From NCBI GenBank assembly GCA_018389105.1, contig JACATO010000121.1, positions 2,262,001-2,326,000 on the forward strand: a stretch of 64,000 bases of DNA, read 5' to 3'. Positions 5,565 to 64,000 of the stretch are shown piece after piece. Both the position numbers and the translations under genes were made by a program. Each line of letters opens with the position of its first letter. The stretch's first letter is position 1. The stretch comes from Nautilus pompilius. Its lineage: Eukaryota > Mollusca > Cephalopoda > Nautilida > Nautilidae. The notes beneath the pieces were generated by a model. It was not told the DNA's origin. It saw nothing but the letters and a program-made list of their open reading frames with translations, and ran no database searches.

Positions 5565-6100
5565 GCAAAAAAAAAAACCTGCAGGGCCAGTGCTAAGTTA
5601 GGATACGCTTATCACTGAGGTCTTATTTTGTCAAACATTTTAAAAAAAGAAAATAATAATAATGCATGAAAAGAGTAAGACTTGTTTGCATTTTATAAAA
5701 TTGATCAATCTTAAAAGATGAGGAAAAATTATTGCATGTCCCACCTGTACTTATTCCAACACATTTATGCTTAGTCTACTAGTTGGAAGCTGCAGAAACT
5801 TCAGGTGGGGTATACCAATGGTGAATTATAACAAAAAAAAAAAAACCTGCAGGGCCAGTGCTAAGTTAGGATACGCTTATCACTGAGGTCTTATTTTGTC
5901 AAACATTTTAAAAAAAGAAAATAATAATAATGCATGAAAAGAGTAAGACTTGTTTGCATTTTATAAAATTGATCAATCTTAAAAGATGAGGAAAAATTAT
6001 TGCATGTCCCACCTGTACTTATTCCAACACATTTATGCTTAGTCTACTAGTTGGAAGCTGCAGAAACTTCAGGTGGGGTATACCAATGGTGAATTATAAC
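5565..6100. repeat. 268-bp perfect tandem duplication
   Basis: Two head-to-tail copies of a 268-bp unit. The first runs from the A-run before CCTGCAGGGCCAG at 5578 to about 5832, and the second repeats it from 5846 to about 6100. I see no base difference outside the length of the joining A-runs. Each copy begins and ends in poly-A, so slippage or unequal exchange between A-runs is a plausible origin. It lies in the presumed 5' intron of BBIP1, about 320 bp before the coding exon. A very recent duplication or an assembly artefact are both possible. Confidence 0.9.
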
Positions 6101-6445
6101 AAAAAAAAAAAAAAACTAACACAAAAGTGGGCACATTCATAGTTACTCATCAGTATTTTTTAAGGGCAAACATTTTTTTCTAAAATTGTTCAGTCCTTTT
6201 TTAAAAAATCCTGCAAGAATGACCAATTTCACCTACCACAAAAAAAAAAGTTTATGTATGAAGCAAATTTATTAACTCAGAAGGGCACTGAAATGTAAAT
6301 AAAAAGTAGGGGTCAAATTATGCAAGAGAAAACTTAATTACTTCATAACTAAAAATATACAGTAGTTTGTTTTTTTTTAATCTATTTTTTCCCTTATATT
6401 TATTTTCTGTTTTGCAGGTGTTGATACTGTATAGTGAAAGATTTT

Positions 6446-41448: not shown

Positions 41449-41627
41449 ATGGCAGGTCACAAAGCCGAAGAGTATATTGAAAGTCATGACGAGAAGGACG
41501 CCGGCGCCTACAAGGCAAACTACGGCGTGCATAAAGAAGGGATGACTAGGAAGGAGATGGCCGAGTACTATTCAGAGTGGGCACACAATGGAAAATACGA
41601 ACAGGTTGGGACCCATTTCTGTTATTT

Positions 41628-41677
<50 letters not shown>

Positions 41678-41678
41678 A

Positions 41679-41714
<36 letters not shown>

Positions 41715-41790
41715 AGAGAGATGGAGAGAGAGAGAGAGGAGAGAGAGAGGAGAGATGGAGAGAGAGAGAGATGGAGAGAGAGAGATGGAG

Positions 41791-41825
<35 letters not shown>

Positions 41826-41830
41826 TGGAG

Positions 41831-41872
<42 letters not shown>

Positions 41873-44800
41873 AGAACTTAAAAAAATATAGGTGGACATG
41901 ACAAATGCCACTCTTTAGGTGTTAAGATTGCAACAATCATTCTTTTAATGAATTTTCAAAAACGAAGTGAATCAAACGAGTACTTTAGTAACGAAAAGAA
42001 TAGCAAGATATTTTGTAAAAGGTTTTCTTAAATATTTTATCTGATATTGGCGCAAAAACATAACAACACGAAAACACGAACCTAACCACACTAGAGTGCA
42101 CACAGATAATTTGTGCAATATCTTTATGCTTTTTAAAATAAATACATTCAGTGAAACTAAATATTATGACAAATTTGTTAATTTATTTATACTATAAGAA
42201 TACAAAATGTTGTTTTGAAGTTTAACTATAAAACGTTGTTGTTTGTTAGTTTTAAGAATTAATAACCTTTTCAGAATTTTTCCCTTGCGATTTTAAGTCA
42301 TATTTTTAAACAATCAATTAAGCAATCATTTTCTTTTTTTACTTATTAACAATATCTTCTTTTAATATGTAGATTTGAACCGGTGTTATTACGTTCACTA
42401 TTCGTTAACTCGTGTAGTAGACATATCTTTTCTTCAGCGAGCCACCCGCGACCTACCTACTGACAATAAAGGTGCCAGTTATCTATCACCTGGATGGTTG
42501 GCATCGCCGATTTCACTTTATGTCAAATGATATCCGCAGAAAGAATTACCGATTAACAGCAGCTGTTTCAATACGAAAATAAAATGTCAGTCCATTTAAC
42601 GTTGTTCACTTTCAATGTGAAATAAAAGGCTGACTTAACCGTGTCCTCAGGTTGTTTGCGTTGCTTGGCTTACACGAAGTAAGAAAATTGTCTGAGGTTA
42701 TTTTAAAATTACTTAGAGCTCTCTAGTGCTGCTCTCGCCGAGCGCTTCTCTGGAATACTTAGATATCAGAATTCTTTTTAAACGATGAATATTCACTTTT
42801 TTAATGTGAGCATCGTTGATGACTGACCAGTTGTTCTGCTTCCTACTGTTCTAGTCTCCTTCTAGTAAACGCTTACTCATTAATGTAGGAGACTTTGCGC
42901 TTCAGGAACGTTGTTGTAATCATTTATCATCAAAAACGAAATTTACGTAAACAAAAGGAATGCAAAGTCTCGTGGTTGAATTAGATGACAAGGGAGGGGA
43001 CCATGTAACAAAGATTGGGTCCAAATTGCTCTCTTTTGGGTCGAGGTACTCAGACTCTTTCTGCGGTCCTCTGTCATGGCTCTATTAACATTCCTTGGAT
43101 TTTAACTCTTTTAACCCATGCCCTGTTTTGTTTTGTTTTCTTAAACATCCGCTACTCCAAAAGGTTCAATCCAGATTTCGCACATGTCACAATTCTAATA
43201 TGGCGGATTTAACGATTATAAACCAGCCCGGCTTCCCAGATATCAAGATTCCAATATGGCGGAGCGGAAAAGACTACAGCCTCCTCCATAAGCACTTCTC
43301 ACGTTTTGTCCACCATTGTCTATATAAAAAGTAATGATTTTAATTATCTTGTTTTTATTTATCTGTTCGATTTGTGTAGGACCTGTGCCCTTCGAGGTAC
43401 CGAGGTCCTTTCATAGCTGCGGAGGCTCTCGATGGCATCTACGGCTCAGACAGGGAACATATCAGGATTCTGGATGTCGCCGCCGGCACAGGTCGGCTTG
43501 GAGAGGAGGTGAGATCTTTAAAACATTCGGCAGACAACAAAATGCTTGTTAATGTCCACTGTCGTTTGTCAATTTGTAACTGTTTCCAGTAATTCCCTTC
43601 AGGCTCTTGTAGTCTTTTGTGCTTTCTGTTCTCTGCTGCTCTTGCTGCAGATATTATCACTCATAATAACTAATTCTTAAAGTGGTTATTCTTGATATAC
43701 TTAAAGCTGCCTTCACTCTTTAAACTCGTGTGTGAGAAAGAGCGGCGATCGTTTACAAAACCATCTCCTTTTATATACAAATTTTAGAACAGTGTGAAAC
43801 CCCTGTTTAACCCTTCATATACAAGGGAGTATTTGTTCTCCAGCCCATAAGCACCAGGTTATACTCCTAACAGGCTGCTTATTTAGTCAACATTTGTAAT
43901 GCAAAACCTAGGAGACGGATTTGATGTCACGAAATTGAAGATTAACGAGAAAGGTATTGTATTGCCACGGCCTCTATGGCTCAGCTTAATCTGTGCTGAG
44001 GAATACAGATATTGAAGGCTTATAGGGTGACGAAGGAGTCACCAGAGAGTTAACGTAGTAGGCTGGTTACAGTGTAAGTAATATAACTTCGGAAATTCTT
44101 TCTTTTAGATGTTGGCCGCCTCTCTACAGTTGGGAGACGTGCCGGGTGTTCAACTTACATATTTGCTATGGTTCAATAAATTCAAGACAAATAAATAAAT
44201 ATTATACGGTGCTTGTAACTAATCTCATAATAATAATATTATTATTATTCCGTTTTTCGTTTGTTTTTTCTCCTAGTTAGTGAAGTACGGCTTCAAGAAC
44301 ATCGATGCTCTTGATCCATCGCAGGGGATGCTAAACGAAGCAAAAAAGAAAAACATTTACACAAATTTATACTGCGAATTTATTGACGATAACCGGCTTC
44401 CGATCAACGACGGTGAGTCACAGCATGTTGTTTATCCGACAGAATAACACGTAAAAACTAGTGTAAATATAATCTATTCTGAAGCCATTGCGATTTAATA
44501 GTATCAAAATAGCGCGAATGCGAGAGCATAACTAAGGTAGACAGTGAATGGAATCATTCTCAATCGTCAGGTTTTTGTTGCAGATCAATAGCAGAGCAGT
44601 TTGACTTCCTAAAGCATTTAAATAATTTCCTTCATAATATGAATCTACGGGGCTTGAACCTGTGGCCAGAAGTATTTATTGTCTCCCGTAAATCAACAAT
44701 TTTCTTTAAACTTAGAAATCTGAATAATTACAGGATCGGAGCTGCTTCATTCAGTTTCTGACATAATTATCCAATATCTCTTCTGGCCTTAAAGTTGTAA

Positions 44801-45831
44801 TCCTCATAATAGCAGGAAAAACAAAGCAGAATTATTGCCACAAACTGCACAAGTACTGGTTAACGAGGAAGAGGGAGAAAGGACCCATTGTACTTTATTT
44901 GAAATTTGTATTTCGTGAAGATTAAGAGTTCAACTTTTTCTTGCCAAAACTGAGGCTTCGTTTGTTTGTCTTTCTCTCTACAGATGAGTACGATGCGATT
45001 GTCGTTGCAGGAGGAATGGGAGAAGGTCACATTCCCACTATTGCTTTGAATGAAATGACGAGAATTGTGAAGCCAGGTGAGTGATGGAATGTCCGATTTT
45101 GACATATTGTCACCGGCTATTGATCAGGGTGAGCTCGCCTAAAGACGGGATCCCTGCTTCAGAAACCCTTACCGGATACAACCAATTCCGAGAGAAAAAT
45201 TAGTCAAAACAACGGAAACCAGCAACGGAAGGATTCAAGCAAAAGTCCAAAGGCTAAGACGATGTCAAAAGCGACGTAGACGTAGATGCTACTATCAACA
45301 CAAAACATTTTTAGTAAAGCTAAACAGTTTTATAAATCTATGGGAAAACATCACCAAAGAAGGAAGATGTTGAATCGTTTTGGAAGTTGATGCTCTTCAA
45401 TAAAGAGAATTTTGCAAAGAATTCTGAGATAAATAATCATATCCAAAACATACATAGCAGCAATAAAACGATTGAAACCGTACTGCGAGTATTAAATAAA
45501 TGTTTATTTTTCACTATAAATTTAAGAATCCATTTAACAATCCTATTGTGACAGGTGACCTACTGCTTTAAGAAATCATTTTTGTCAGATAGATTGAAAT
45601 GTTCTATGATCACGTGAAGCCTTGGACATCTCTTTCTGTTTCTTTGTAGGTGGATTTGTATGCCTAGTGATGAGAGAAGAATACCTGTCGTACGTGGAAG
45701 ATTACAAAAATTTGGAGCAGACAATGAAGAAAATAGAAAGTGATGGAAAATGGAAATTGTCGTCTCGTCACAAAGTGCCTTTCTACTCCTTCAACAAGCC
45801 AGGTGTAGTTTTTACATTCCAAGTCTGCTAG
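41449..45831 (+). CDS. METTL27-like SAM-dependent methyltransferase, copy A
   Basis: Five exons, 41449-41604, 43380-43508, 44277-44412, 44984-45076 and 45650-45831, join in phase to 231 residues; all junctions are GT-AG. The fold is a class I methyltransferase: motif I at residues 82-95 (ILDVAAGTGRLGEE), the acidic end of strand 2 at D108 (IDALDPSQGML), the YDAIVVAGGMGEGHI strand at 143-157, and IVKPGGFVCLVMREEY from 168. Exon 1 encodes YYSEWAHNGKYEQ just before the catalytic core, matching the YDxWAxxYDxD entry of METTL27 (WBSCR27). Human METTL27 has 245 residues and an uncertain substrate. The first ATG of the longer open frame is 41407; I chose 41449 because it aligns with copy B, where exon 1 has the same 156-base length. 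A long GA microsatellite begins 23 bases after the exon 1 donor. Confidence 0.92.
41628..41875. repeat. (GA)n microsatellite in intron 1 of copy A
   Basis: About 250 bases of GA with scattered GAGG and GATGG interruptions, beginning almost at the exon 1 donor. Frames through it are low complexity. Confidence 0.95.
43190..43330 (+). promoter_or_regulatory. possible internal promoter ahead of exon 2, copy A
   Basis: Two AATATGGCGGA/CAATATGGCGGA strings, close to the YY1 consensus, lie at about 43196 and 43250; a TATATAAAA run is at 43321. Exon 2 begins at 43380. Copy B has the same motifs at the matching positions (about 60965, 61020 and 61089). A transcript starting here would lack exon 1. 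Motif matches of this size can occur by chance. Confidence 0.25.
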
Positions 45832-46200
45832 GACTTTCTTCCATATCACCTACTGCATCTTTGTTTAATTTGGACCAGAGATTATTTGTGATGTATTTCT
45901 AATCGTCTTATTTAAACATTGTCCTTCTGCCTTCCAATTTTTTTAAGTAAACAAGCAAGTATAGTTTCACATAATAAGAGCTTTTTGACAAATACTTTGA
46001 AAACGTCCATTAAGAAAATTCTGAGATATATTTGTAGTAAAGGCAGAACGAAGTTGTTCATATTACTGCCACCAGTCTTATTGTATTCCGTCTATAATTC
46101 TTACGGTTTTTTTCAAAACATTTAAATTAGAACAATTTTGAGAGAAATGGCCGCTCTGTTCATTATGAAATATAGTAAACGACAGATCGAAACCAAATGA

Positions 46201-46206
46201 AATAAA
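46201..46206 (+). promoter_or_regulatory. candidate poly(A) signal of copy A
   Basis: AATAAA 370 bases after the copy A stop. The same signal is kept in copy B at 63947-63952. Confidence 0.45.
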
Positions 46207-46254
46207 TGGTTTATAATTAAAGTTTTCGTCCGCAGTGCGATATTAATAGAAGAT

Positions 46255-49200
46255 TTGTTTTTGTTTTGTTTTTTACTTCACTGAAATTCGGCTTTGCGAA
46301 CATCGTGGTAACTCAAACACGTCATCTCTTTATCTCGTTGTGGGAACAGCGGTGCCATAAGTCAGCGAAAGTTTGGTTTAATCTGACCTCTGACCTCTCG
46401 ACCTAATGTTGCTTTCGACTCAATGACTGGGCGGAAAACGTCAGATAAGATCATACCCGTCCAGTTAACTCGGAATCGTTTGACCATTTTCGTTTAGACT
46501 GCAAGCCGCGGTTCTCATCAATAGTCGGGTTAAAACTGGTGTGGTTGGCTGGCATATTTACGTACGATGACCGAACCTGGTCAGAAGCCTTTACCATGGA
46601 GACCCGCCATTAGTTCGTGGTTTGGTTGGTCATCACTTGAGTTTCGGTTACATCACCAAAACACGGAATCTGTTTAAATCTTTCCATCTGGGGTTAACTT
46701 TCTTTTTTATTTCATTATTTTGAAATATCTCAAATTTACTCAGGTTGTCGTTAAATGGCTTTACATATTTTCGAAGATATATATGTATAAACGGGGTTTT
46801 ATAAAAATAAAAGAAATTGAATACAACAGGGAAAAGGGAACTGTTAAAAAATCTGGCTATCTTTGGGGAAAGTGTTAACACAGTAATAGGCTGAATATTT
46901 CAACTGTTTTCAGTGTCATATTTCTGTTTTAACAGTGTATAAAGATTCCATTCTTAAGAAATTAGACTGAGAAGGTTAAATCTAAAAAAAAAAATCGTTG
47001 CTTTTATTGTACATTATTTTTGGCATTTGGTATCTTTTATGCTTGTCGACATTTTTGAAATTTTAAATCAACTTTGTACCAATTCAGGAAAACGAGATGC
47101 TTATATTTTTTAACTGTTAATAAAGAATATATTGTCATGTTTGCTTTTCTGTTTATGTCGATATTTTTTTAGTGAATAGAATTTTATCGAAAATACAACC
47201 ATAAGATTAAATGATTGAAATATAAACCTTGAGTGAGAAGGTTGTACGCATTTAAAATTACAGTAATACCCCGTTGAAAGCTGATCCGCTATTAAGCTGT
47301 TGGTTTTGTTTTTTTAAAATTCTATGAAGTAAAAAAAATGGCGAATTCGAATGAACCGGGCGCAGTGGCCATCTTTGTTTACGCTTGCTGAGCCAATGAC
47401 AAGCGGCGTATTAGATCGCTCTGAGCCAATCAGTACTTTTCTGCTTCAGCCTGGACTCGAATGCACCTACCTGTACTGTCATCACTCAAAGGGGTGGCGC
47501 TTGCACTTAATAAATGGTATTGTGTGTTTGCATGTACTCAGGTTTATTCTTTAATCAATTGTTTATGTTAACCAGTAGCTAAAATAAGCCGTCATGTATC
47601 ACTCATAGGTAAAACATAGCACCGGACGGGACGCATCTGATAATGACCCTATTGAAAGCTGATTTGCTGAGGAACGCACCCTGAACTTTCACCGGGACCG
47701 AATGGGCTACTTGCCAAGAATCAAGATTTATAAATCTTTCTCTCTTTTATGAATTATTGGATCCATTCATAATTTCTTAGACTTAAAATTATCCCTAACC
47801 TTAAAACAAAACAAAAAGGAATAGAAAAAAGACCTATTTCCTTCCCCGTAGTTCTATTTTAATAGATAATCGATAAAAGTTTTATTCTAAAGATATTTCG
47901 AATAATTATTTGTTTTACCATGAAATACATATGCATTTGTTTGTTCATTAACATTTGAAAAAAATATGTTTATATTTCTCTTCTCTGTCGTTCGAAGCAG
48001 CTTTATTAATCTGTTGGTAAAATTCCCCATGAAAAAAAAAAAACAAAAACAACAGCAAAACCTTATGATAATTGAATGTCTTTTAAGTAGTGCTACAATA
48101 ATGACTAACTATTCTATTACAACCTACGGGGAGAGCAACATCAGCGTGGCTCTCTTCGAAGATACCAAGTAATTATGAGATGTGCCAATTAGATGTCTAC
48201 GTATTCTGCACACTAGCTGCCATTGAGATGACTGAGTGATATAAAATTTATCCTTACAACATTAGCTGATTATAACTAGAGAAGACCAGAACTGGTTATT
48301 AAATATTTAAGCTGTTACCGTGGCAGTATTTCCCAATTAAACTTATAATTGACATTATAGGCTTTGACTTACGCCGATTAGAACTCATCCATGAGATGAA
48401 TTAATAATAACTGAGCCCAATCTACCCTGTGCATCATTATTTCTTAATGAAGCTCTGTTATAAACCAGTGTAAAGAACAACATATTCCATTTGAATTTAG
48501 CTTATTGGAAAAGTTCCAATTCTGCGACAGGTTGTAGGAGTGGAATATTCCGTGACCTTGATGAAGGCGAATCCTACCATCAAGAACCTTCATGGATCTT
48601 GACTTCACGAATTTCCACAGCATTTGAGCTCGCTTTCTGTTCAGGCAAGTAGTCTAACAGTGAAATCGGCGCATTGAATTCTAGTATGCTATAAATTCTT
48701 CCATAGCGCTTCGCTCTGTTTAATGCTAGCTATTTGCTTTACAATTACTTTCAAATTCAACCGCGCTACAATGCAAAGAGAAATTGACGGATGATGTCGC
48801 CATGGCTGATATCCAGTTGGCGACCAGTATTTTGACCAAAGAGTTCAGTTCGTTTCAATCCAATGGTCTGCCATCTCTGTGTTTTCTTAAAGCTTTTATT
48901 CAAACTCTAATGGGACACGCGGATTTACGGTACATTGCCATCCATGTTCATATTCCGGTTACTCTCCGTAAAAACCATGGTGTCAGTGGAAGTTTGGGTT
49001 AAGTTAAATTGTTGAGCAAGAAACAAAATGGCTTGTCTGCACGATGCCAGTCTAAAAATAATTGGAGAAAAACTGACATCGTTAGAAAACACTTTAATAG
49101 CATGTTTGGCAACTACTGACATCAGTGGAAGCCTGTAGACACTTTGATATCGACCAGGTCAGACGAACCAGCTGTTATGTCAGATGTGTAAACAAAGAGC

Positions 49201-50420
49201 AACACTGATAACATGTACACGTTGGGACGGACGTCGTCATCTATTGGTCCAGAGACTGGTCTCTGGATAAAACACTCCATCTTATTGATTGGAGAATCAA
49301 TTCTTCAGCCATTACAATCAGTCAAGCAGCAGTCGCCACAAAATCAGTCATGCTAAGTAATGGCTCCGTTAGCAAACAGTTATCAGACTTATCTACACAT
49401 TACAGCCAGTCCTTTGTTGATATCCTGAAATAATCGAAACTCATCAGTAGAACAAACAAAGAACCGGTGAATCAACTCCCAGCTGTGATGATGATGTCAC
49501 CCATTGCATGTACAACTGTCGGTGGTGTCGTTGTAGCGTGGTGCGCAGCATTGGTATTCTGGACCGCAGACCACTGCCATAAACCCAGTTCCAAAACTGT
49601 GATGAAATTCTAACGTCTGTTTCTCTCTGCAAGCTATTTAAAAAATAAAATGCTTATTGATAGACGGTATCTTCTGACCACAAGTTAACGATCCTCGGGA
49701 GTTGGGGTAGCTTCTGTCGAATTGAATGAGATCTCTGCGTAAACTGCCCAGTCAGATGGCACACTGCTCGTGCCCTGAAAACGACACTTTTATGACGGGC
49801 AGTCTGGTTCATTCATCTTTGGAATAGCCAAAATGGCATAAGCCACCTTATTGTGTCCTAAATTACGCCCAGGCATACCTAAACTGACTTTCCCTACAGG
49901 TGTGGCCAGTTTATAGAGGATGTAGGCGGATAAACTCCCAGAAGTAATTTCTAGATTAGTTTCTGACGTCGCTCAGCTCTGGAGAAAACGACTGTAGCAT
50001 CGCATGGTGTAGGTGCATCGCCTTGTTCAGGTGCCTTCCCTCAATAAGCCGATTGCCTTGAACATGAACACGTTCTACGGGACCATACAAATAGTGAAGG
50101 CTTGAAAACGTTTCTTTATTCCTTTGTACACAGTATATAATGCAATTCTAGGCAAATTTGGATATTCATATGTTTTACACAGCCAGGAGATAATTCAAAA
50201 ATAAACTTACAAAACCAGAAAAATAGAATGCATTATTTATCATTGTTTTGCTTCAGGTAAAGGCACTGGCGATGAACAAAGTAGTTGAAAATTTTGCGGA
50301 TTTAACGCAATGAATTTAGCGAAAATACAGGTTCAGCACTAAGAATAAACAATATCAGGGTGGATAAAGGAGTTTGTTGTACTGATGATTTCTAGAGTCA
50401 GTTTTTGTCTCACTCTTTGT
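46255..50420. other. between the methyltransferase copies, no gene recognised
   Basis: About 4.2 kb. Near 47266-47300 there is CAGTAATACCCCGTTGAAAG, which recalls the ends of pogo/Tigger-type elements, and the string TTGAAAGCTGAT recurs at about 47650; no full element can be drawn. Frames at 48784-49002 and 49444-49632 are unassigned. Confidence 0.35.
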
Positions 50421-50608
50421 AATGACGTCACCTCTCTCTCTCTCTCGTACTGATGTCGTCATCTCTCTCGTACTGACGTCACCTCTCTCTCTCTCTCGTA
50501 CTGATGTCGTCATCTCTCTCGTACTGACGTCATCTCTCTCTCTCGTACTGATGTCGTCATCTCTCTCGTACTGACGTCATCTCTCTCTCTCTCTCTCCCT
50601 CCCTCCCT
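50421..50608. repeat. GA minisatellite with TGACGTCA spacers, locus 3 (inverted)
   Basis: The same family as the 28.6-kb locus, read on the other strand: (CT)n runs separated by CGTACTGACGTCA and CGTACTGATGTCGTCA alternately. About eight spacers are present, of which several keep the palindrome TGACGTCA. It lies about 270 bases left of the piggyBac element. Confidence 0.95.
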
Positions 50609-50874
50609 TACAATCACCTAAGGAAAAAAATGTAACATAGGTCTAATGCATTTTAATTTTAAAATAACGATGACTAATAAAAGAACAGAGGAGAGAAGCC
50701 TGTGTCAGGCTTCGTTTAATATTTATTTATTTACTGTGAATGTAACCATTTTATTTAATTTCTTCGTTATGTTGAAGCTTAAATATCGTATGGTGGCCAT
50801 TTTTACCAAGACTTTCTGTTTAGTGGATTACACATGAAAAAAGAACAAGGTTTGCTAATTAGTAAAACAGCCTG

Positions 50875-53070
50875 TTAACCCTCCGTTACTGCACCGAAGT
50901 GTGAGCTACCCCACAGTTTTTGAAAATGGTGCCGTTCCAAGATGGAAGTACTTGAGACGCCGCCCTTTTCGGTACCTACCTGAAACGATGGCTAGAGTGC
51001 AACACAGGCGGCAGCTCAGTAGCCGGACAACTTCTGAGAGAGGAGGTGTTTTGTTGTCGTCTGGGATGGCGACCACCCCACTGCACTGTCCATGCATGTT
51101 TTGATTTAGGGTTGAAATCTTTTGTGTTTCAGATTACAAACAGTATTCACTATGCATAGAAATTCCTGTTGCATCACTATAATCTAGTTGATTTGTTATT
51201 TAATTTGAGAATATCTAGTCCTGAGTCACAGGGTGCTCTTGGCGGTGTATAACAAAGGTATCCCTACTTGTGGTATTATTTTATTTTTTAATATCTTGGG
51301 TGTGTGCACTTTTGCTGACTCACGATGGATTACGAACAGAGAATGGTAGAGGCTGAACTCGACAGACAAGATGACGAGGAGGATCTGCTTGAAGAGCAGC
51401 GAAGTCAACCTTGTTGAAGACAGCCAGCATGAGACCGATACAGAACAAAGGGAGGAGGATGAGGAGGAGGAAGAAGAGAGACAGGAAGAACGATCAGATC
51501 ACTATTATCTTCGTAAGGATGATAAAATCAAATGGAAGAAAACTGTTCCAAAGGGAGGTGTACGCACCAGTGCACACAATATAATTTGAGATTTAACATG
51601 ACCTCGAAGTCGTGCCATAGACAAGAAGATTCTTGTAGAATGTTTGTCTCCACTCCAGACATCATCGATATGTTAGTTGGGTGCTCACGCATTTTTATAG
51701 AAGAGCAGAAAGGGAAATATCAAGAAGCTTCGAGAACCAAACTCACCGACGCGATTGAAATAAAGGCACTCATCGACCTGCTGTATCTAGCAGGAGTTCT
51801 CCGAAACAACCGAATGAAATTAGATGATTTGTGACAAACTGATAGGTCAGGGGTTGGAATTTTTCGAACAATGTTGCTTCAGCGTTTTGGTTTCCATTTA
51901 AGATTTGACAACATCAAGACACAGGAAGACCGAAGGCCACTTGATAAACTTGCGCTCATTCGACAGTTTCTCACTCGAAACTGCTCCTTCCCGGAATATG
52001 TTACCATAGGTGAAATGCTGGCTGCTTTCAGAAGGAAATGTCCGTTTAGACAGCACATACCAAGTAAAACAGCGAACTATGGGCTCAAAATATTTACGTT
52101 GGGTGATGTTACATCATTCTGCGTGTCAAAGATGCAAGTTTACGTAAGTAAAACAAACTGCGGGACCTTCCAAGTGGGTAATAGACCATCGGAAATAGTA
52201 AATCGGCTTGCTTCTCCAGTTCTTGGGACTGGGAGGAATGTTGCAATGAACAACTGGTTCATGAGTTATCCTCTCGTGTTTGACTTGTTGAAAAACCACA
52301 AGTTGACTGTTGTTTGCACTGTGAGAAAAAACAAAATTCAAAATCTTAAAAGGTCGAAAACCATTCTCAGGTATGTTTGGCTTCTCTGAAGATGATGACA
52401 CGTTAACGTCATAAATTCCAAAGAAAAAGAATGGTCACATTCTCCTGAGCATATTGTATAACTTCGCCTAAAGCAGCTAGGACTAAATTTGATTTCAAGT
52501 TCATCTAAGAGAGAGAGAGAGAGTCTGCTTTGAGGATCTGAAGAAAATCCGAGAAAGCGCGATCGAGAAGGGTCTCAAAAGGAATGCACAATGTACCCCA
52601 GAAAAATAGGAAGGCAAAAGTCACTCGTCCTATATGTGACAAATAAAACTGTTCGGAGCACACTGAGCATCTCTGTGAAGACTGCTGACCAACAGGAACA
52701 TGAAGTGAAAAAGTCAGAATTAATGGAATGTTTACCTGTGAAATAAATAAACAAGTAATTGATTATCCAAACATTAAAATCATGTTTATCTTACTAATTG
52801 TGATTGTGAAATGCAAGAAACTACATTTATTTTGATTGATTATGATGTATCATAAATTTTAAAAAACGATTTTTAACATTATTTTCGATTATTTCACTAT
52901 CTATTAGATTAAATTGTCATATAACTAGCCATGTATCATACAAAACTTATAACTGAACATTGCTTAATGTATCAATGCAGCCATTAAAAAAACAAAATAT
53001 ATTTCAAATATTTTATTAATTATTAATTATGTGGGGTGTGCCATACTCCACTGCACTAAAGGAGGGTTAA
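50875..53070 (+). mobile_element. piggyBac-type DNA transposon, ends intact, transposase decayed
   Basis: Flanked by TTAA at 50875-50878 and 53067-53070, the piggyBac target site. The left end reads CCCTCCGTTACTGCACCGAA, and the right end on the minus strand reads CCCTCCTTTAGTGCAGTGGA. Plus-strand frames cover most of a piggyBac transposase: an acidic N-terminal stretch (51371-51589), then VEIKALIDLLYLAGVLRNN written here as IEIKALIDLLYLAGV (51532-51834), and a 172-codon frame (51871-52389) with EYVTIGEMLAAFR, CPFRQHIPSKTANYGLKIF and GRNVAMNNWFMSYPL. Families have YVTIDE and VTMDNWF here; the Asp residues are replaced by Gly and Asn. Frames are interrupted in at least two places. The copy could still be mobilised in trans because its ends remain, but it cannot encode active enzyme. 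Confidence 0.93.
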
Positions 53071-53246
53071 TAAAACTCTGTGAGGTCATTACTTTCAGGT
53101 AATTAAATATTTGACATTTTTTCAAACATGTAAGGAAATATATCTGACCGAAGATATGGCACATGTAATACTAACGACATTAAGCCTACTGCACTATTGC
53201 TAAGTCTAGGAAATACAACCCAGATTATTGATTTTAAATATCAGGT

Positions 53247-54500
53247 CGTTACAAAAAGTTTGTCGGTTTTTATATTAAGTTAATCTGGGTTCATTTTTTG
53301 CATGCCTGCGAGGGTGTATGCAGATGAGTTATATATCGTTTTGTAGCGTGGGCTCTGGCATGCATTAGACAAAACCTACCTTTTTAAAAATCATAAAATG
53401 GATATTTGTTTCAGGGTCCCTGAGTAAAACGTGGATAGAAAAGTTTTTCGTGCCATTTTCCTTCACCAATCCAAACTGGGCCACAGAGCGAGCGAGGCAA
53501 CTGGTAATATTAGGCAAGCATGGGGCGAGGATACAGAAGATGAGCGGGCAGCACAACGATGGTTTGCAAAGTTTCGATCAGTAGGTGTGAGTCTCGAAGA
53601 TAAGGAACGTGTCAGACGTCCTTCCAGCTGTGATGACGACCGTCTGAAAGCCTTAATTGAAGCCGATCCAAGAAAAACAGTGTGAGAAATTGCTGGAGAG
53701 CTTGACGTGAGAACTGCAACTGTTTTCGGCATCTTGACGCAATCGGCCAGGTGAAAAGGCTTGACAAGTGGGTGTCTCACGAGTTGAAGGAACAGCAACA
53801 AAATCGTCGATTGGAGATCTGCTCTTCGCTTGTCATAAGAAACAGAAAAGACCCATTTCTTGACCGAACCATTACGTGTGATGAAAAATGGATCCTTTAC
53901 GACAATCGAAAACGATCAGCGCAGTGGCTCGACGGAGACAAGGCGCCTAACCACATTCCAAAACCCAGCCTCCACCCAAAGAAGGTGATGGTCACTCTCT
54001 GGTGGACTGCAACTGGTGTCATCCACTAAAACTTCTTGCAACCTGGCGAAACCATCACAGCTGAAAGGTACCGTCGTGAATTAAACGTTGTTCATCAGAA
54101 ACTCTCCCAACGACAGCCAGCATTGGTGAATCGAAGAGGCCCAGACCTGCTACACGACAGTGCTCGTCCTCAACTTGCAAAAGTGACTCTTCGGAAACTG
54201 AACACGTTGGGATACAAAGTTCTCCATCACCCAGTCTATTCACCAGACCTTTCTCCCAGAGACTTACACCTTTTCAAACACCTGAGCTTCCTCCGTATGA
54301 AATCCTTCTGCAACCAAGCAGCAATTGAAACTGCTTTCCAACAGTTTATCGACTCCAGAAATCCATTTTTTTTTTCAAATGGTATAAATTCTCTGTACCT
54401 CGTTGGCAGAAATGTGTTGAAAATACAACTGTTGTTCTCGACGCCCCCAAAATTGTTGTTGACAGCACGAATACATAAATCCGCGTCCTGAAGGTAGATT
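53247..54500 (+). mobile_element. mariner DNA transposon relic (DD34D)
   Basis: The left end resembles a mariner terminal repeat (TTACAAAAAGTTTGTCGGTT at about 53249). Plus-strand frames give FRAIFLHQSKLGHRASEATG and AQRWFAKFRSVGVSLED (DNA-binding half), then TCDEKWILYDN, LLHDSARPQ and YSPDLSPRDLHLFKHL. The three catalytic aspartates fall at codons 53880, 54156 and 54261 in one frame; 34 residues separate the last two, the mariner DD34D spacing. Stops interrupt (for example TAA at 54027 where families have Tyr), and the N-terminal half is in another frame. I did not find the right terminal repeat. Related to the SETMAR/Hsmar1 type by sequence. Confidence 0.9.
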
Positions 54501-57500
54501 ACAACAGGTACAGAGGAATGCACGTCCCGCTTTCAGAAGTTTAGATTGGTTTTCGTATCAGCGATTGTGCTGTTTATTTCAGCTCGACCTTTGACATTGA
54601 ATCGTATTCAACACGACCACCTGTTAAGTATGTCAACTGTCAAGGCTTCCTGCTTCAAATGTTATGCAAACAAACATATTTTAAAGCTGTAAGTGTGGGG
54701 GGAAAAAAGATAAACAAACACAATCAACGTAATAACTGATATGCATGAACACTCCGACAGATTTCACATGACTCTCCAAATATTCTATATTGTATTGTTA
54801 GATTTGTGTGTACGATTAATATCATAAGTATACATCACATACCTGAAAATACCCGTTACCATTATATTCCTTTTTGTACTATATTTACCAAAAGATTATT
54901 ATTATGATAATTATCGTTATTATTATTGTTATTGTTGTTGTTGTTGTTGTTGTTGCTGTTGTTGTATCAGGTAAATATAAATGCGAGAGACAAAGGGATT
55001 TCCAATGAACGGTCTAAACATCCGAGGACGTGTGAACCTAAGTGTCTCTTGCTATTACTTGTTTTCTACCTTTATAGGCTATCGATCTAAAATAATCACT
55101 TTGTCTATAATACCGGGAAAGCTCAGCGCGACACTTACCAAGTCAATTCTTTCGGTAGGTTATAGCAGCAAAGACTCAGTGGGAATGGACTTTCTGACTT
55201 CTAATGCCCTCCTATGCTCCAAATGGAAGGGCCACAAGTCTACCGGTGGACTGACTGTAGGTCTCTGTGGGCAACCGTGTCGTCCCCAGCATTATAGATG
55301 CACCTAGAAGGTAATCTGCTAATTTCTGCTGGTGCCTATTAGCACGGGTAGGCAGAACCTCATGGAGGATTTTCAAATAAACATCGGGTGTAACTGTCAC
55401 GTGATTTGTTAAACTGGAGTTTTAAAACGTGCGCCATAGATGGAGGTCCGCGCCATGTTGAGAAACTATTCCTCTATAGATACCACTGTGGAACTTTTAA
55501 TAATATTTGTTTAAAGTATTAGTTAATTTCTCGTAAGTAACTATTGTATGCCTAACAGAACCTAGTCAGTGCATTACTGTTTTGAGAGGTCGGTTTAATC
55601 TGTTCTAAGTACACGTGAATTGCTATTTTGTTAAAATAATTATTACTGTGTACTCACGGATGTCCGCAAGGTATTTTTTTTTTTCAGTGGGAGACGGGCA
55701 ACATAACAAAACTTGGCCAAGGATGTATTATGAGGTTAGGGTATTCCCACGCTTTGTCACTGCTGTCTCGGACCGCATTTCCCTACATCGCTACTCTCTT
55801 CCAGATCTTTGAGCTTTCTGTTATCAGCAGGGTGCGGCTGGGCCGTTATTTCTTGACTGATTCCCCCACGCACCTGTGAGCGTAATGAATCAACGGAGTA
55901 ATCTCCCCTCGAGGACGCCCGTGTGTATACTCCACCTAAGGCTTTCTGAATTAACTGATCAGCAGTTGTGTTCTTTGTGTTTACCGTCTTAAGGAAGATG
56001 GACCATGTGTTTCTCTCCCTTCAAAATAAAATATAGTATATGGTCACGTTTTTTAACGGGTTGACGGACCAATGTCGACATCCTTATTATGATTTTCCTG
56101 CCTTAGGGCTGTGCTACATCATTTATAAGAGTACATTCACCCATAAAGCTCAGATCGCGGGCTCGCCAGCCCCCGGGGCTTTAATTTGTTTAATAACTGT
56201 AGCCAACTTTAGGTACATTCATATATTTACCTTTAGTTTGGCAGGGTACAGTTCGGACACCTGGCGCAGCTTCGTAAATGGAAAAAAACAAGCAGTTATG
56301 GGCCGTAGTCGTGGTGAGGAAGGAATGCCGTATCTTTGATTGCGTGGTTGATCGATCGATGGAACGCCTAAGATTTCAAGTTTCTCCCTAATCTTGCAAC
56401 GTGGGGAGCCACTCTACAGCGCTTCTCCTCTGCAGGTCTAAGGCACGCCGACGTGAAGAGATTTTGGCTACTTCAAGTCCGACCTCAGCCGTAAATATTT
56501 CTATACGCAGCTAAAATTGCAGATAGGCTCCGAAGTCCGGCATCAAACTGAAGAGCGTTGTCACTGCTTCCGGTGCATGAGTCACGTGTGGAGGACAACG
56601 CGACTGGTCGGTGCGTTCGGTCCTCGGCCGAGCGAGAATAGTAGCAGATGGGCGGTCAGTCGGCGATTTCGATCGGTGGCCTCGTTTCCGATACCGGACC
56701 CTACAATACAGAAACAAACACTCAAATAAAAAAACAAGCTCATAAATATCGTGACCTTTGCTTGAGGAGATATTAACCCCCAACGGATGTTATTGTTTTT
56801 TTTGTTTGTTTTCTATATTCGCATCTGGGAAAAAAATAACAATGCATCTGCAGTAAAACTAGGTAGGCATCTATTTCTCGTTCAGGTGTGTTTCACAATT
56901 GAATACAAAGAAATAAATATAAACTGAAAGCGGACTAAGTAAACCTTACGTAGAAGTACTGTTTCTTAGACCAGGATATGCATTTGTGTGTGTGTATATA
57001 TATAAAATACCTAGAAGCGATTTCGAAAGACGTCAGTAATGCGTCAGATCCGTCTGAGAACGCGAGTTCTGTCATTCAGCAGTATATACTGAATACCGAA
57101 CCACTTGTCCGACAATAGCGATTGGAATCAGTACAGGTAATAATATTAATTCTTTCGTTTTTCCCTCTAGTAGCAGATCATAATGTCATAAGAAGTCCTA
57201 GATTCGTGTCGTAGATGAATCCCCTGAGCGGCACAAAACATAAAAGTCATATTAAGTTGAAAGTATGAAGACAGAGGGGCTCGAAATTGATTCTTTCATG
57301 TCACATTTTACGCATCGGTAGAATTTTCCAAAAGAATCCATTCTAGATCTAGCGGTGAATACAACGGACTGTCCGGTGAGGAAAATGAGCCTTAGGCATC
57401 AATCGCCACGTGGAAAGATACTTAATTTATACCGCTCTCATTACGTACAGCGCACCTATATTTACCAGTGGGGTGACTGATCTCCTACCTCTAACCTTCC

Positions 57501-57640
57501 TTAGTAAATGGCTCTTCAGACGTAAAGAAAGCGATAGATTTCAGAAATTCCATATGATTTTCAGTTATGTAGGCAGATCATTGATCCGAGGTTCGATAAA
57601 ATAACGTAGATATCATTAACTTCCCATTCTGTAGAGATTC
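54500..57640. other. no gene recognised
   Basis: About 3.1 kb. A GTT-rich run at 54920-54965 is a simple repeat. A CpG-containing stretch at 56560-56700 carries GTCACGTG. Small frames in this part (54981-55307, 56040-56339, 56511-56783) look random. Confidence 0.4.
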
Positions 57641-57651
57641 CGATGGTTTTT

Positions 57652-58867
57652 CTAACTTTTCGCAGATTTTCCCCTAAACAGCCCAAATTCGTATTTTACG
57701 TAATCAGTTGCAATTTCATTCAAAACATTTGACGGGTAATGTTTTCTATAATATTTCGGGTTTATATTTTGAAAAGATGCATCCGGTAAAACTCTTTCAA
57801 ATCTGAATATATTGGAGAAGCCACCTTCGATTTTGCTCAAGGGTTTTAACGTTCCAATTGTTTACAAAACACAAAATAATTCCAGCTCCTTGCTACACAC
57901 CGGCGGAAAACGAGGAAATTCCGACCTGAGAGACTCTGGAATACAATTAACGGATTTGCATTTCGGTAGGAAAACACGGAAAGTCTGCTACCAACGTTAA
58001 CGGGCAGAGAAACATAACCACAACGTATGAGTTGATAGTATTAAAGTAACTTGATACAGGATCTAATGAGTCACTTTTAGAATCAATCATATCACCATTG
58101 GATGATAATAATAAATAGAAGACATGCATTATTAATTCTTTCTCTCGTTTGGCTGTATACCGAAGAAAATCTTCAACCATGTGACCGTCTACGTACAGAA
58201 CATGCTCGAACTGACAAATACAAGAATTTATCAGTGAAATAACCAGTCTGGTTATGATTGAGAATTACGGACGCTTATAATAGCTGGCCGTTACCTTTGC
58301 AAATGGATGTTCCAGCAATGGCTGCATGTCTGCTCTTGCGTTTCGATGATGCCATATCTGATCGAAGCGAGGTAGGCAGCATAGACCAGTGTGGAGTAAC
58401 CTGACTGAAACACTGTCATCTCACCGGCAGCTGTTTTTGGAGTTTTCCAGTAATGGTGGATTCCAGTGAGAAACTGATAATTGACCATTGGGTTTTCTAC
58501 TTCTTCATCAACTAGTATGGAACCAACGACAAGAAAGCGAGATGGTAGATTTTTTAAGTTCCGCTCCACCAGTCACCTTACAAGTCTTCAATAGCCATTT
58601 AACTGCCTTGTAGTATAATCAGCGCACGTTTCCAGTAATAGACAGCATCTTCGCTAGTACATGTAGCACAGAGACGGTCACGACACTAGTGACTGGCTTT
58701 GACGTATTAGTAAATTCTTGAATGTTGAAAGGGTGTTTCGAGTCGTCTGCTTTAATCCGCAGAGCGAGCGTAGATGAAGTAAATGTAGCGGCGTGCTCGG
58801 ATGTTATAGAACACCAATAACATACACTACGGTCTTTATAACGGTTAATTAGCAACCAAAACTTCAC
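57652..58867 (-). other. cluster of four unassigned minus-strand frames
   Basis: Four frames of 62 to 92 codons follow one another on the minus strand: 58619-58867, 58291-58569, 57947-58180 and 57652-57840. They look more protein-like than the surrounding noise: for example RFLVVGSILVDEEVENPMVN and RYGIIETQEQTCSHCW in the second. I recognise no family. It may be one decayed element or an old pseudogene; I draw no joined product from it. Confidence 0.3.
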
Positions 58868-59284
58868 ATTTACATCTTTCCTGAAGATGGGTTACAATGG
58901 GGGGGAGTGTTGTGCGAGATATTTTAAGCAATATTTTGAACTTCTTCCAGTCGAACTTAAGTCATGACTTGCAGGGGAAAGAAGAGGGATATTGGCGTTG
59001 GTGACCTAAACGGTTACCTAGGTACGCATTGTGGAGCCCGTCGGGCCGTGGTTAGGGTACGAGCCAGCCAAGAGTTAGATTACATCTTCAACATCGTGAC
59101 TTATTGTTGTCCGTTATATTATCAAATCAATGGACAGACGGCTTTGACGGCATCAAGGCCATTAAATGTGCAGTTTACAATGTTCAAATGCGTTCTACTA
59201 AATGATGGAGAAAACGTGTAATGTAGCCCTTGACAAATTTTCTTTCCACTAGACATCAAGAACAATAACAGCAACAAGAACAAA

Positions 59285-62200
59285 ATGGCGGAGGAAAGGG
59301 CGACTACTTATATCGAGAACAACAGCAAGGAAGATGGCGAAGCGTACAAAACGACTTATGACGTCCATAAGGAAGGAATCTGTAAAGAGGACTTGGTGGA
59401 CTATTATTCAGATTGGGCCCGGAACGGAAAGTATGAAAAGGTATCGCAAAACTATTTTTATAGTAAAACTCGGGTATACAAACATCAATAAACAATATAA
59501 ACAGAAGTAGTTTTGCGAATTTCCTCGTGTATATAACCATCACTCACTCGGTTAGGGTTTAATGTAGAAACCTTGAAATAACCTTGGCGTCTGTTAATAA
59601 AGTAAACTCACCTTATTCAATAACGAAGATCATTAAGTACCATGTACGGTCGGATTCAAAGGTTATACGACATATCTAAACTGTGGATAGATATTGTTCT
59701 CGTTAAAGGACTGGTAGAAGAATTAGCTTCCCAAACGAGAAGAGCACGTGACGTTTTTTCTCGTAATGTTACACTGTAGAATGAAAATAAGATTTGCATT
59801 TTAAAGATTCTATCACAAGCACACGCGCACACACACACGCGCACACGCACACACACACACACACACACATACACACACACACACACACAGACGCACGTAT
59901 ACACAAACGCAATAAGACATCGATGAAGAAACTAAAGGTCAAAAGCCGTTGCTCTCTCTTACAGCTTCAGTTGAAATAATGACAATTCTTTCTCTTATGC
60001 TACTGGTATTAAAGAGCAGCGTGGTTCTTCAGTAGTGTGGTTGGTTTACTAAACCACTTAGGACAAGGACCGGATTTTGAATTCTGACCAAACCGGCTCA
60101 GTTTGACGTAGGCAGGGTTACATAGATTTTCCTCAGATTCTCCGATTTACGTTCCCATAACTAAAAGGAGAGATCTCTAATAGAGACAATCGCTCGTCTC
60201 CTCCCACTGTGCGAAGTATGCACTCCCAAATTAGTGGGTAAGCAAACGATCACTCGTCGTGTAACTAAGAGAAGCATTCAGCAGCTTCCGTAACCGAATA
60301 AACCTAAAGTGTCGCCTACGATTCCTTTTATAGCGATGTCTGAAACACTGCTGTTTTCAAATTTCTTGCGTTGTTCACTTTCAATGTGAAATAAAAGGCT
60401 GACTTAACCGTGTCCTCAGGTTGTTTGCGTTGCTTGGCTTACACGAAGTAAGAAAATTGTCTGAGGTTATTTTAAATTTACTTGGAGCTCTCTAGTGCTG
60501 CTCTCGCCGAGCGCTTCTCTGGAATACTTACATATCAGAATTTTTTTTAAACGATGAATATTCACTTTTTTATGTGAGCATCGTTGATGACTGACCAGTT
60601 GTTCTGCTTCCTACTGTTCTAGTCTCCTTCTAGTAAACGCTTACTCATTAATGTAGGAGACTTTGCGCTTCAGGAACGTTGTTGTAATCATTTATCATCA
60701 AAAACGAAATTTACGTAAACAAAAGGAATGCAAAGTCTCGTGGTTGAATTAGATGACAAGGGAGGGGACCATGTAACAAAGATTGGGTCCAAATTGCTCC
60801 CTTTTGGGTCGAGGTACTCAGACTCTTTCTGCGGTCCTCTGTCATGGCTCTATTAACATTCCTTGGATTTTAACTCTTTTAACCCATGCCCTGTTTTGTT
60901 TTGTTTTCTTAAACATCCGCTACTCCAAAAGGTTCAATCCAGATTTCGCACATGTCACAATTCTAATATGGCGGATTTAACGATTATAAACCAGTCCGGC
61001 TTCCCAGATATCAAGATTCCAATATGGCGGAGCGGAAAAGACTACAGCCTCCTCCATAAGCACTTCTCACGTTTTGTCCACCAGTGTCTATATAAAAAAT
61101 AATGATTTTAATTATCTTGTTTTTATTTATCTGTTCGATTTGTGTAGGACCTGTGCCCTTCGAGGTACCGAGGTCCTTTCATAGCTGCGGAGGCTCTCGA
61201 TGGCATCTACGGCTCAGACAGGGAACATATCAGGATTCTGGATGTCGCCGCCGGCACAGGTCGGCTTGGAGAGGAGGTGAGATCTTTAAAACATTCGGCA
61301 GACAACAAAATGCTTGTTAATGTCCACTGTCGTTTGTCAATTTGTAACTGTTTCCAGTAATTCCCTCCAGGCTCTTGTAGTCTTTTGTGCTTTCTGTTCT
61401 CTGCTGCTCTTGCTGCAGATATTATCACTCATAATAACCAATTCTTAAAGTGGTTATTCTTGATATACTTAAAGCTGCCTTCACTCTTTAAACTCGTGTG
61501 TGAGAAAGAGCGGCGATCGTTTACAAAACCATCTCCTTTTATATACAAATTTTAGAACAGTGTGAAACCCCTGTTTAACCCTTCATATACAAGGGAGCAT
61601 TTGTTCTCCAGCCCATAAGCACCAGGTTATACTCCTAACAGGCTGCATATTTAGTCAACATTTGTAATGCAAAACCCAGGAGACGGATTTGAGGTCACGA
61701 AATGTAAGATTACCAGCTTAATCTGTGCTGAGGAATACAGATATTGAAGGCTTATAGGGTGACGAAGGAGTCACCAGAGAGTTAACGTAGGCTGGTTACA
61801 GTGTAAGTAATATAACTTCGGAAATTCTTTCTTTTAGATGTTGGCCGCCTCTCTACAGTTGGGAGACGTGCCGGGTGTTCAACTTACATATTTGCTATGG
61901 TTCAATAAATTCAAGACAAATAAATAAATATTATACGGTGCTGGCAACTAATCTCATAATAATAATATTATTATTATTCCGTTTTTCGTTTGTTTTTTCT
62001 CCTAGTTAGTGAAGTACGGCTTCAAGAACATCGATGCTCTTGATCCATCGCAGGGGATGCTAAACGAAGCAAAAAAGAAAAACATTTACACAAATTTATA
62101 CTGCGAATTTATTGACGATAACCGGCTTCCGATCAACGACGGTGAGTCACAGCATGTTGTTTATCCGACAGAATAACACGTAAAAACTAGTGTAAATATA

Positions 62201-63578
62201 ATCTATTCTGAAGCCATTGCGATTTAATAGTATCAAAATAGCGCGAATGCGAGAGCATAACTAAGGTAGACAGTGAATGGAATCAAACTCAATCGTCAGG
62301 TTTTTGTTGCAGATCAATAGCAGAGCAGTTTGACTTCCTAAAGCATTTAAATAATTTCCTTCATAATATGAATCTACGGGGCTTGAACCTGTGGCCAGAA
62401 GTATTTATTGTCTCCCGTAAATCAACAATTTTCTTTAAACTTAGAAATCTGAATAATTACAGGATCGGAGCTGCTTCATTCAGTTTCTGACATAATTATC
62501 CAATATCTCTTCTGGCCTTAAAGTTGTAATCCTCATAATAGCAGGAAAAACAAAGCAGAATTATTGCCACAAACTGCACAAGTACTGGTTAACGAGGAAG
62601 AGGGAGAAAGGACCCATTGTACTTTATTTGAAATTTGTATTTCGTGAAGATTAAGAGTTCAACTTTTTCTTGCCAAAACTGAGGCTTCGTTTGTTTGTCT
62701 TTCTCTCTACAGATGAGTACGATGCGATTGTCGTTGCAGGAGGAATGGGAGAAGGTCACATTCCCACTATTGCTTTGAATGAAATGACGAGAATTGTGAA
62801 GCCAGGTGAGTGATGGAATGTCCGATTTTGACATATTGTCACCGGCTATTGATCAGGGTGAGCTCGCCTAAAGACAGGATCCCTGCTTCAGAAGCCCTTA
62901 CCGGATACAACCAATTCCGAGAGAAAAATTAGTCAAAACAACGGAAACCACCAACGGAAGGATTCAAGCAAAAGTCCAAAGGCTAAGACGATGTCAAAAG
63001 CGACGTAGACGTAGATGCTACTATCAACACAAAACATTTTTAGTAAAGCTAAACAGTTTTATAAATCTAGGGGAAAACATCACCAAAGAAGGAAGATGTT
63101 GAATCGTTTTGGAAGTTGATGCTCTTCAATAAAGAGAATTTTGCAAAGAATTCTGAGATAAATAATCATATCCAAAACATACATAGCAGCAATAAAACGA
63201 TTGAAACCGTACTGCGAGTGTTAAATAAATGTTTATTTTTCACTATAAATTTAAGAATCCATTTAACAATCCTATTGTGACATGAAAATGGACCCACGTT
63301 GGTGACCTACTGCTTTAAGAAATCATTTTTGTCAGATAGATTGAAATGTTCTATGATCACGTGAAGCCTTGGACATCTCTTTCTGTTTCTTTGTAGGTGG
63401 ATTTGTATGCCTAGTGATGAGAGAAGAATACCTGTCGTACGTGGAAGATTACAAAAATTTGGAGCAGACAATGAAGAAAATAGAAAGTGATGGAAAATGG
63501 AAATTGTCGTCTCGTCACAAAGTGCCTTTCTACTCCTTCAACAAGCCAGGTGTAGTTTTTACATTCCAAGTCTGCTAG
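59285..63578 (+). CDS. METTL27-like SAM-dependent methyltransferase, copy B
   Basis: Five exons, 59285-59440, 61148-61276, 62006-62141, 62713-62805 and 63397-63578, give 231 residues, the same length and phases as copy A. Exons 2-5 are identical to those of copy A, so all methyltransferase motifs (ILDVAAGTGRLGEE, DALDP, AGGMGEGH, KPGGFV) are the same. Exon 1 differs: it keeps the length and the frame of landmarks (VHKEG, YYSDWARNGKYEK) but shares only 26 of 52 residues with copy A. The start at 59285 follows AACAAGAACAAA and is in good context. The coding sequence is complete inside the window; the 3' flank continues beyond it. Both copies appear functional by sequence. Confidence 0.92.
59818..59902. 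repeat. (CA)n microsatellite in intron 1 of copy B
   Basis: About 80 bases of CA with some CG steps. Copy A has GA instead in the corresponding unduplicated part of its intron 1. Confidence 0.95.
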
Positions 63579-64000
63579 GACTTTCTTCCATATCACCTAC
63601 TGCATCTTTGTTTAATTTGGACCAGAGATTATTTGTGATGTATTTCTAATCGTCTTATTTAAACATTGTCCTTCTGCCTTCCAATTTTTTTAAGTAAACA
63701 AGCAAGTATAGTTTCACATAATAAGAGCTTTTTGACAAATACTTTGAAAACGTCCATTAAGAAAATTCTGAGATATATTTGTAGTAAAGGCAGAACGAAG
63801 TTGTTCCTATTACTGCCACCAGTCTTATTGTATTCCGTCTATAATTCTTACGGTTTTTTCAAAACATTTAAATTAGAGCAATTTTGAGAGAAATGGCCGC
63901 TCTGTTCATTATGAAATATAGTAAACGACAGATCGAAACCAAATGAAATAAATGGTTTATAATTAAAGTTTTCGTCCGCAGTGCGATATTAATAGAAGAT
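60369..64000 (+). repeat. segmental duplication block, copy B (cut by window end)
   Basis: Direct repeat of 42600-46254, starting in intron 1 of copy B. The homology is still unbroken at base 64000, so the true block is longer than 3.6 kb. The exons do not differ at all; the introns differ by scattered single bases and the few indels listed for copy A. Confidence 0.95.
63947..63952 (+). promoter_or_regulatory. candidate poly(A) signal of copy B
   Basis: AATAAA 369 bases after the stop, matching the copy A signal. Confidence 0.45.

Follow-up and report, generated by a model that had tools for sequence, protein, structure and literature searches.

A METTL27-type methyltransferase gene of Nautilus pompilius whose first exon and body have different nearest relatives

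Introduction

How do two neighbouring genes come to carry identical exons 2–5 behind first exons that agree at only half of their residues? The question is raised by two methyltransferase genes, A and B, in a 64,000-nucleotide (nt) stretch of the Nautilus pompilius genome (contig JACATO010000121.1; C120:2262001-2326000), which is here called the window and belongs to an assembly of 727.6 Mb in 2,558 contigs, the assembly covered by all genome searches reported below. An earlier note, made from the letters of the window, took A and B for an old duplicate pair whose 3′ part had recently been overwritten. The analysis presented here extends beyond the window to a third gene, C, and judged by the nearest relatives of its parts gene B is a mosaic of a first exon of C's lineage and a body common to A. 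The cluster as a whole has probably been reassorted by more than one DNA exchange.

Two genes with a common body

Genes A and B are each full five-exon methyltransferase genes with a coding sequence of 696 nt, a product of 231 residues, no internal stop and GT-AG borders at all four introns (Table 1). Both products match the class I S-adenosylmethionine (SAM) methyltransferase domain in Pfam (PF13649, E 1.4e-13; PF08241, E 6e-12), and among solved structures copy A is closest to METTL27, also named WBSCR27 (PDB 7QCB, E 1.2e-27, over the 171 residues 39-209). As the earlier note had stated, exons 2–5 do not differ at any of 540 nt, whereas exon 1 has 60 differences in 156 nt (12, 14 and 34 at codon positions 1, 2 and 3) and the two first exons share 26 of 52 residues. 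Synonymous divergence (pS) between the first exons is saturated (0.96). Exon 1 is a frame-neutral module, as its end lies in phase 0 in each of the three genes A, B and C. A long GA-rich microsatellite (41628-41875) lies right behind the donor site of exon 1A. A tblastn search found no third copy within the 64-kb window; the genome beyond it holds one and more.

The shared body forms a block of about 3.8 kb that runs from the middle of intron 1 to some 620 nt beyond the stop, past the poly(A) signal, and is about 99% identical between A and B. Its noncoding part carries 32 substitutions in 3,269 aligned sites (0.98%) and five indels; given a uniform rate, a coding part free of differences has a chance of 0.0075 (Fisher p 0.018 for coding versus noncoding). 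The introns are near-identical, as had been claimed, from mid-intron 1 onward, whereas the start of intron 1 (the first 995 nt in A and 928 nt in B) yields no A–B match better than E 0.38. The homology reaches the window edge, and the sequence beyond places its end at 64195; outside either end of the block no convincing A–B alignment was found. The final 107 nt contain four differences compared with 28 in the 3,162 sites elsewhere, for which the p of 0.02 is too small, since the stretch was picked post hoc and starts at a difference. This looks as if a later conversion had halted before the block edge, and later conversion inside the block is possible.

Two simple models do not account for this arrangement. 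One tandem duplication of a 17.8-kb unit does not work because the homology ends at 64195. An unequal exchange between the first introns of A and B, with the same unit, predicted an A-like run-on and a second exon 1B, and it is ruled out because the homology stops at that point and the next piece of body is inverted.

The assembly itself might also have placed one body locus twice, so that the two blocks would be alleles or the product of a bad join. Divergence of about 1% is within the allelic range of animals, and 3.8 kb is shorter than common long reads, which counts in the other direction. An exact 279-nt direct repeat in the window (5567-5845 and 5835-6113, the copies overlapping by 11 nt) reflects either tandem duplication in the very recent past or a slip of the assembly. 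For the published Nautilus genome, if it is the same assembly, two draft assemblies and a Quickmerge step are mentioned (PMC8257504). Conversely, no N occurs across 144 kb around the A/B locus, the flanks of the two blocks are unrelated, unlike those of haplotigs, and besides A, B and a fragment described below no genome-search match exceeds 69% identity. We regard an artefact as highly improbable.

The first exon of gene B belongs to the lineage of gene C

Gene C starts 11.9 kb past the window end. Among the nucleotide patterns that group two of the three first exons, B=C occurs 38 times, A=C 13 times and A=B 10 times (p 4e-6 against equal thirds). Exons 1B and 1C are identical at 124 of 156 nt with a pS of 0.32, whereas A–C, like A–B, is saturated (0.94). 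The B–C homology also extends beyond the coding part: nhmmer aligns about 295 nt (E 1e-34), which start 15 nt ahead of the ATG and reach about 124 nt inside the intron, and the flanks are identical at 88 of 137 sites, the remaining 49 giving a divergence of the same order as the pS of the exon. Similarity between the first exons of A and B is confined to the exon and about 10 nt around it. The bodies tell a different story, as those of A and B differ from that of C with a pS of 0.79 and 114 of 179 identical residues, which indicates an old split. Because exon 1B is nearest to C and body B is identical to that of A, the nearest relative of gene B switches within intron 1, and the parts of this one gene have different nearest paralogues.

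An inverted fragment and the order of the exchanges

A fragment beyond the window, T, helps to order these events. On its own strand, it begins with the sequence upstream of gene B and passes through a junction with the microhomology AAACGA into intron 1, exon 2 and part of intron 2. Of six matches to the upstream stretch in a genome search, two are full-length, namely B itself (100%) and T (96%), and four are 83-nt pieces. T is therefore most likely derived from B's locus, with a loss of 2.6 kb that includes exon 1. More distant relatives of the upstream stretch, at 64% identity, adjoin exon 1C and also lie inverted at 79477-79857; they may reflect common descent or a repeat.

Within 1,259 body sites, T has 19 private changes, A has 8 and B has 5 (p 0.002 against a star). 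The T–B difference (24 of 1,259 body and 15 of 492 upstream sites) exceeds the A–B difference (13 of 1,259; p 0.015). T thus appears to branch off before the A–B split, so that B's locus probably bore its present body before the last homogenisation of A and B, and more than one exchange would be needed. The direction B to A is simpler, as judged from T. At the published neutral rate for Nautilus, if applicable, rough dates would be about 58 million years for B–C, 4 for T and 1.8 for A–B.

These comparisons bear on the proposal that A and B are one old duplicate pair in which one 3′ part was overwritten once, in recent time, by gene conversion or unequal exchange. The old split of the first exons (synonymous sites saturated) and the recently homogenised body (99% alike) are as that proposal expects. 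However, exon 1B is far closer to 1C than to 1A while its body is that of A, which makes B a mosaic with C rather than the plain partner of A, and T carries the same body beside B upstream DNA and seems older than the A–B split. A single overwriting event thus seems insufficient, and we consider the model improbable in this form.

A second METTL27 tandem pair, on contig C2071 (156528-159184 and 164042-170000; loci L019 and L020), is patchy as well. Its exons 3 and 4 differ at 7 of 234 nt, whereas exons 2 and 5 differ at 53 of 297 nt; the stretch from exon 3 through intron 3 to exon 4 is 96.8% identical over 726 nt, and the stretches of exons 1, 2 and 5 are about 73, 77 and 84% identical. Together with the data on A, B and C, this pair counts in favour of exchange within clusters. 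Further paralogues or pieces lie on contigs C2, C2071 and C2536.

What the first exon may do

In the mouse, the first 51 residues of WBSCR27 are described as disordered without cofactor, whereas in the complex with S-adenosylhomocysteine the N-terminus forms three helices that are part of the cofactor site and of the presumed substrate site, with W37 and Y41 close to the methionine moiety (PMC9240639). The aligned counterparts of mouse W37 and Y41 in A are W44 and Y50, the same residues are present in B, and exon 1 ends eight residues past the Trp aligned to W37. Exon 1 is a plausible specificity part, a lid whose folding in A and B is taken from the mouse protein.

The earlier note held both first exons to be under selection, which is a fair description of 1A and a weaker one of 1B. 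The first exons of A and B agree at positions that are constrained in the family and differ at variable ones (mean entropy 2.16 versus 2.99, p 0.0004), and their profile scores are 106 bits for A, 88 for B and 117 for C, with a family median of 93. Exon 1B has kept its frame, donor and landmark residues. The ratio of replacement to synonymous change (omega) between exons 1B and 1C is about 0.75, a value that fits 1 (p 0.16) and also 0.3 (p 0.15) but not 0.1 (p 3e-6). With six listed outgroups, the B branch has 5-12 replacements in exon 1 and the C branch 2-4; across 97 non-independent outgroups, B is ahead in 81, C in 11 and five are ties.

Gene B could then be a neutral hybrid heading for pseudogene status, a by-product with no function of its own. 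An omega not different from 1 and the excess of replacements on the B branch agree with this, and T and the partial copy D show that broken copies arise at this locus; D holds pieces of C (exon 2 with the last part of intron 1, and intron 4) and is without exons 1, 3, 4 and 5. Conversely, the coding body of B has remained identical to that of A while the noncoding sites changed, B contains no stop, exon 1B has no indels relative to C whereas the flanks have four (p 0.05), and both active-site aromatics are retained. A by-product is a possibility to be kept in mind, though rather unlikely. Most likely, A and B place one core under two lids, the lid of B drifting or adapting; their substrates may or may not differ.

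Homologues and protein trees

The contrast between lid and core is exceptional among homologues. In a survey of A, B and 180 homologues from a database clustered at the 90% level, 462 pairs had an N-terminal identity of 45-55%; pairs counted if 46 or more N-terminal and 120 or more core positions were aligned, so that short N-termini and cores dropped out. Core identity has a median of 57%, and A/B (100%) is the only pair with at least 90%, the runner-up having 81%. Outside the 45-55% band, the Sinanodonta proteins P0038 and P0087, which carry one gene name, have identical cores and unrelated N-termini (8 of 52), an unrelated first part being joined near the exon 1/2 position; an alternative first exon or a gene-model error is possible. 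Octopod proteins in the sampled set are not nearest to A or B. A limited literature search found no report of METTL27 duplication in molluscs, which is a weak negative.

Protein trees were computed for the lid (52 columns) and the body with hand-picked subsets of the 180 homologues (47 or 23 sequences). In the 23-sequence body tree, A groups with the paralogue on contig C2 (91/82) and C is placed elsewhere. With 23 sequences, neither a B–C clade (approximately unbiased test, p-AU 0.48) nor an A–B–C clade (0.29) of lids is rejected. The case for kinship between exons 1B and 1C is made by DNA and not by protein trees.

Weighing the exchange history

We consider it likely that non-allelic exchange of DNA has reassorted first exons and bodies among the class I SAM methyltransferase genes of METTL27 (WBSCR27) type that are clustered at this locus. 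Long ago, exon 1B or its gene would have been copied from (or to) C, and B's locus would have had its present body before T was copied from it. The bodies of A and B would later have been made alike again, most simply by the B body overwriting the A body, and the block edges may date from an earlier duplication. The body would be the SAM-binding Rossmann core and exon 1 a cofactor-induced lid, so that A and B would share their chemistry and differ in lid and promoter. Both keep the substrate-site Trp and the SAM-site Tyr, and the lid of B would be under relaxed or adaptive change.

Several observations weigh against this history. Classical interlocus gene conversion tracts end inside donor–recipient homology, and the A/B block does not; its sharp ends in unalignable sequence are unlike homology-driven conversion, and the mechanism of the first transfer is not shown. 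The B–C homology is only about 295 nt long. The p of 0.015 for the age of T pools the upstream stretch with the body, which alone gives 24 versus 13 differences, and the direction, B to A or A to B, hangs on one 1.8-kb fragment. A, B and C remain unplaced in the lid trees: an A–B clade of lids is not rejected (p-AU 0.28 in the 47-sequence and 23-sequence subsets alike), nor is an A–C clade of bodies (0.24, 23 sequences). The exon 1 donors (GTTGGG, GTATCG) deviate more from consensus than the body donors (GTGAG-), and the splicing of exon 1 to the body in A, B and C is predicted from DNA. Finally, the METTL27 family, the mouse protein included, is without a known substrate.

For such a family the locus is most useful as a natural lid swap. 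The three genes together are a natural series of domain swaps, with the same body under two lids (A and B) and two related lids on different bodies (B and C). The locus also provides an example, with rough relative dates, of exchange that homogenises a catalytic core while the front end stays apart.

Coordinates and neighbouring features

Two transposon remnants lie between A and B: a piggyBac-type transposase piece at 51835-52383 (PF13843, E 1e-20) and a broken mariner-like piece at about 53400-54520 (PF01359, E 2e-4, below its cut-off). The remaining features are collected in Table 1.

Table 1. Features of the METTL27-type cluster, numbered from the first nucleotide of the window and continued in the same way past its end at 64000
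Feature	Position	Strand	Remarks
Gene A exon 1	41449-41604	+	52 codons, putative N-terminal lid; own old lineage
Gene A exon 2	43380-43508	+	
Gene A exon 3	44277-44412	+	
Gene A exon 4	44984-45076	+	
Gene A exon 5	45650-45831	+	stop included
Body block of gene A	42600-46449	+	later part of intron 1, exons 2-5, 3′ flank; AATAAA at 46201; sharp at either end
Upstream stretch of gene B	57424-57921	+	near-identical only at B and T; 64% relatives by exon 1C
Exon 1B with flanks	59270-59564	+	homologous to gene C exon 1, about 74% overall
Gene B exon 1	59285-59440	+	52 codons, putative N-terminal lid; C lineage
Gene B exon 2	61148-61276	+	
Gene B exon 3	62006-62141	+	
Gene B exon 4	62713-62805	+	
Gene B exon 5	63397-63578	+	stop included
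Body block of gene B	60369-64195	+	crosses the window edge at 64000; AATAAA at 63947
Fragment T	68676-66890	inverted	B upstream sequence joined to body
Gene C exons	75870-76025, 86097-86234, 86818-86953, 90161-90253, 92438 onward		one GC donor; frame open throughout
D (locus L013)	107110-111100	inverted	partial copy of C, 95-99% identical

Comparison with known systems

The Nautilus genes resemble mouse METTL27/WBSCR27 (PDB 7QCB, 7QCC) in their Rossmann SAM domain and in the conserved Trp and Tyr of the lid; they differ in that linked genes of the cluster share or swap bodies. In UGT1 and the protocadherins, a variable first exon is described as supplying the recognition part and common later exons the remainder (PMC1885805). 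A and B show the same combination of a variable first exon and a common later part. In those systems, however, splicing leads to one constant region, whereas here each first exon has its own copy of the body in the DNA. At this level every one of the three genes comes with its own exons 2–5, rather than several first exons feeding one exon set, and a single gene with alternative first exons on a common body does not fit the present locus. A broader idea is that intron 1 is a recurrent exchange point at which phase-0 exon 1 lids and exons 2–5 bodies, each with its own 3′ end, are reassorted, the bodies being kept alike while the lids diversify. Such a genomic counterpart of the UGT1 design strikes us as doubtful.

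Close parallels in history are, for example, the colour-vision opsins and RHD/RHCE, which are mosaic tandem duplicates produced by non-allelic conversion or unequal crossing-over. As in those genes, neighbours are alike in one part and old in another, with the breakpoint in an intron. Unlike them, the Nautilus cluster is a three-way mosaic, in which lid lineage and body lineage disagree, and its block has sharp edges in unrelated sequence. A, B and C thus represent a real, slightly complicated mosaic, and an instructive, not unprecedented, route for duplicated enzymes.

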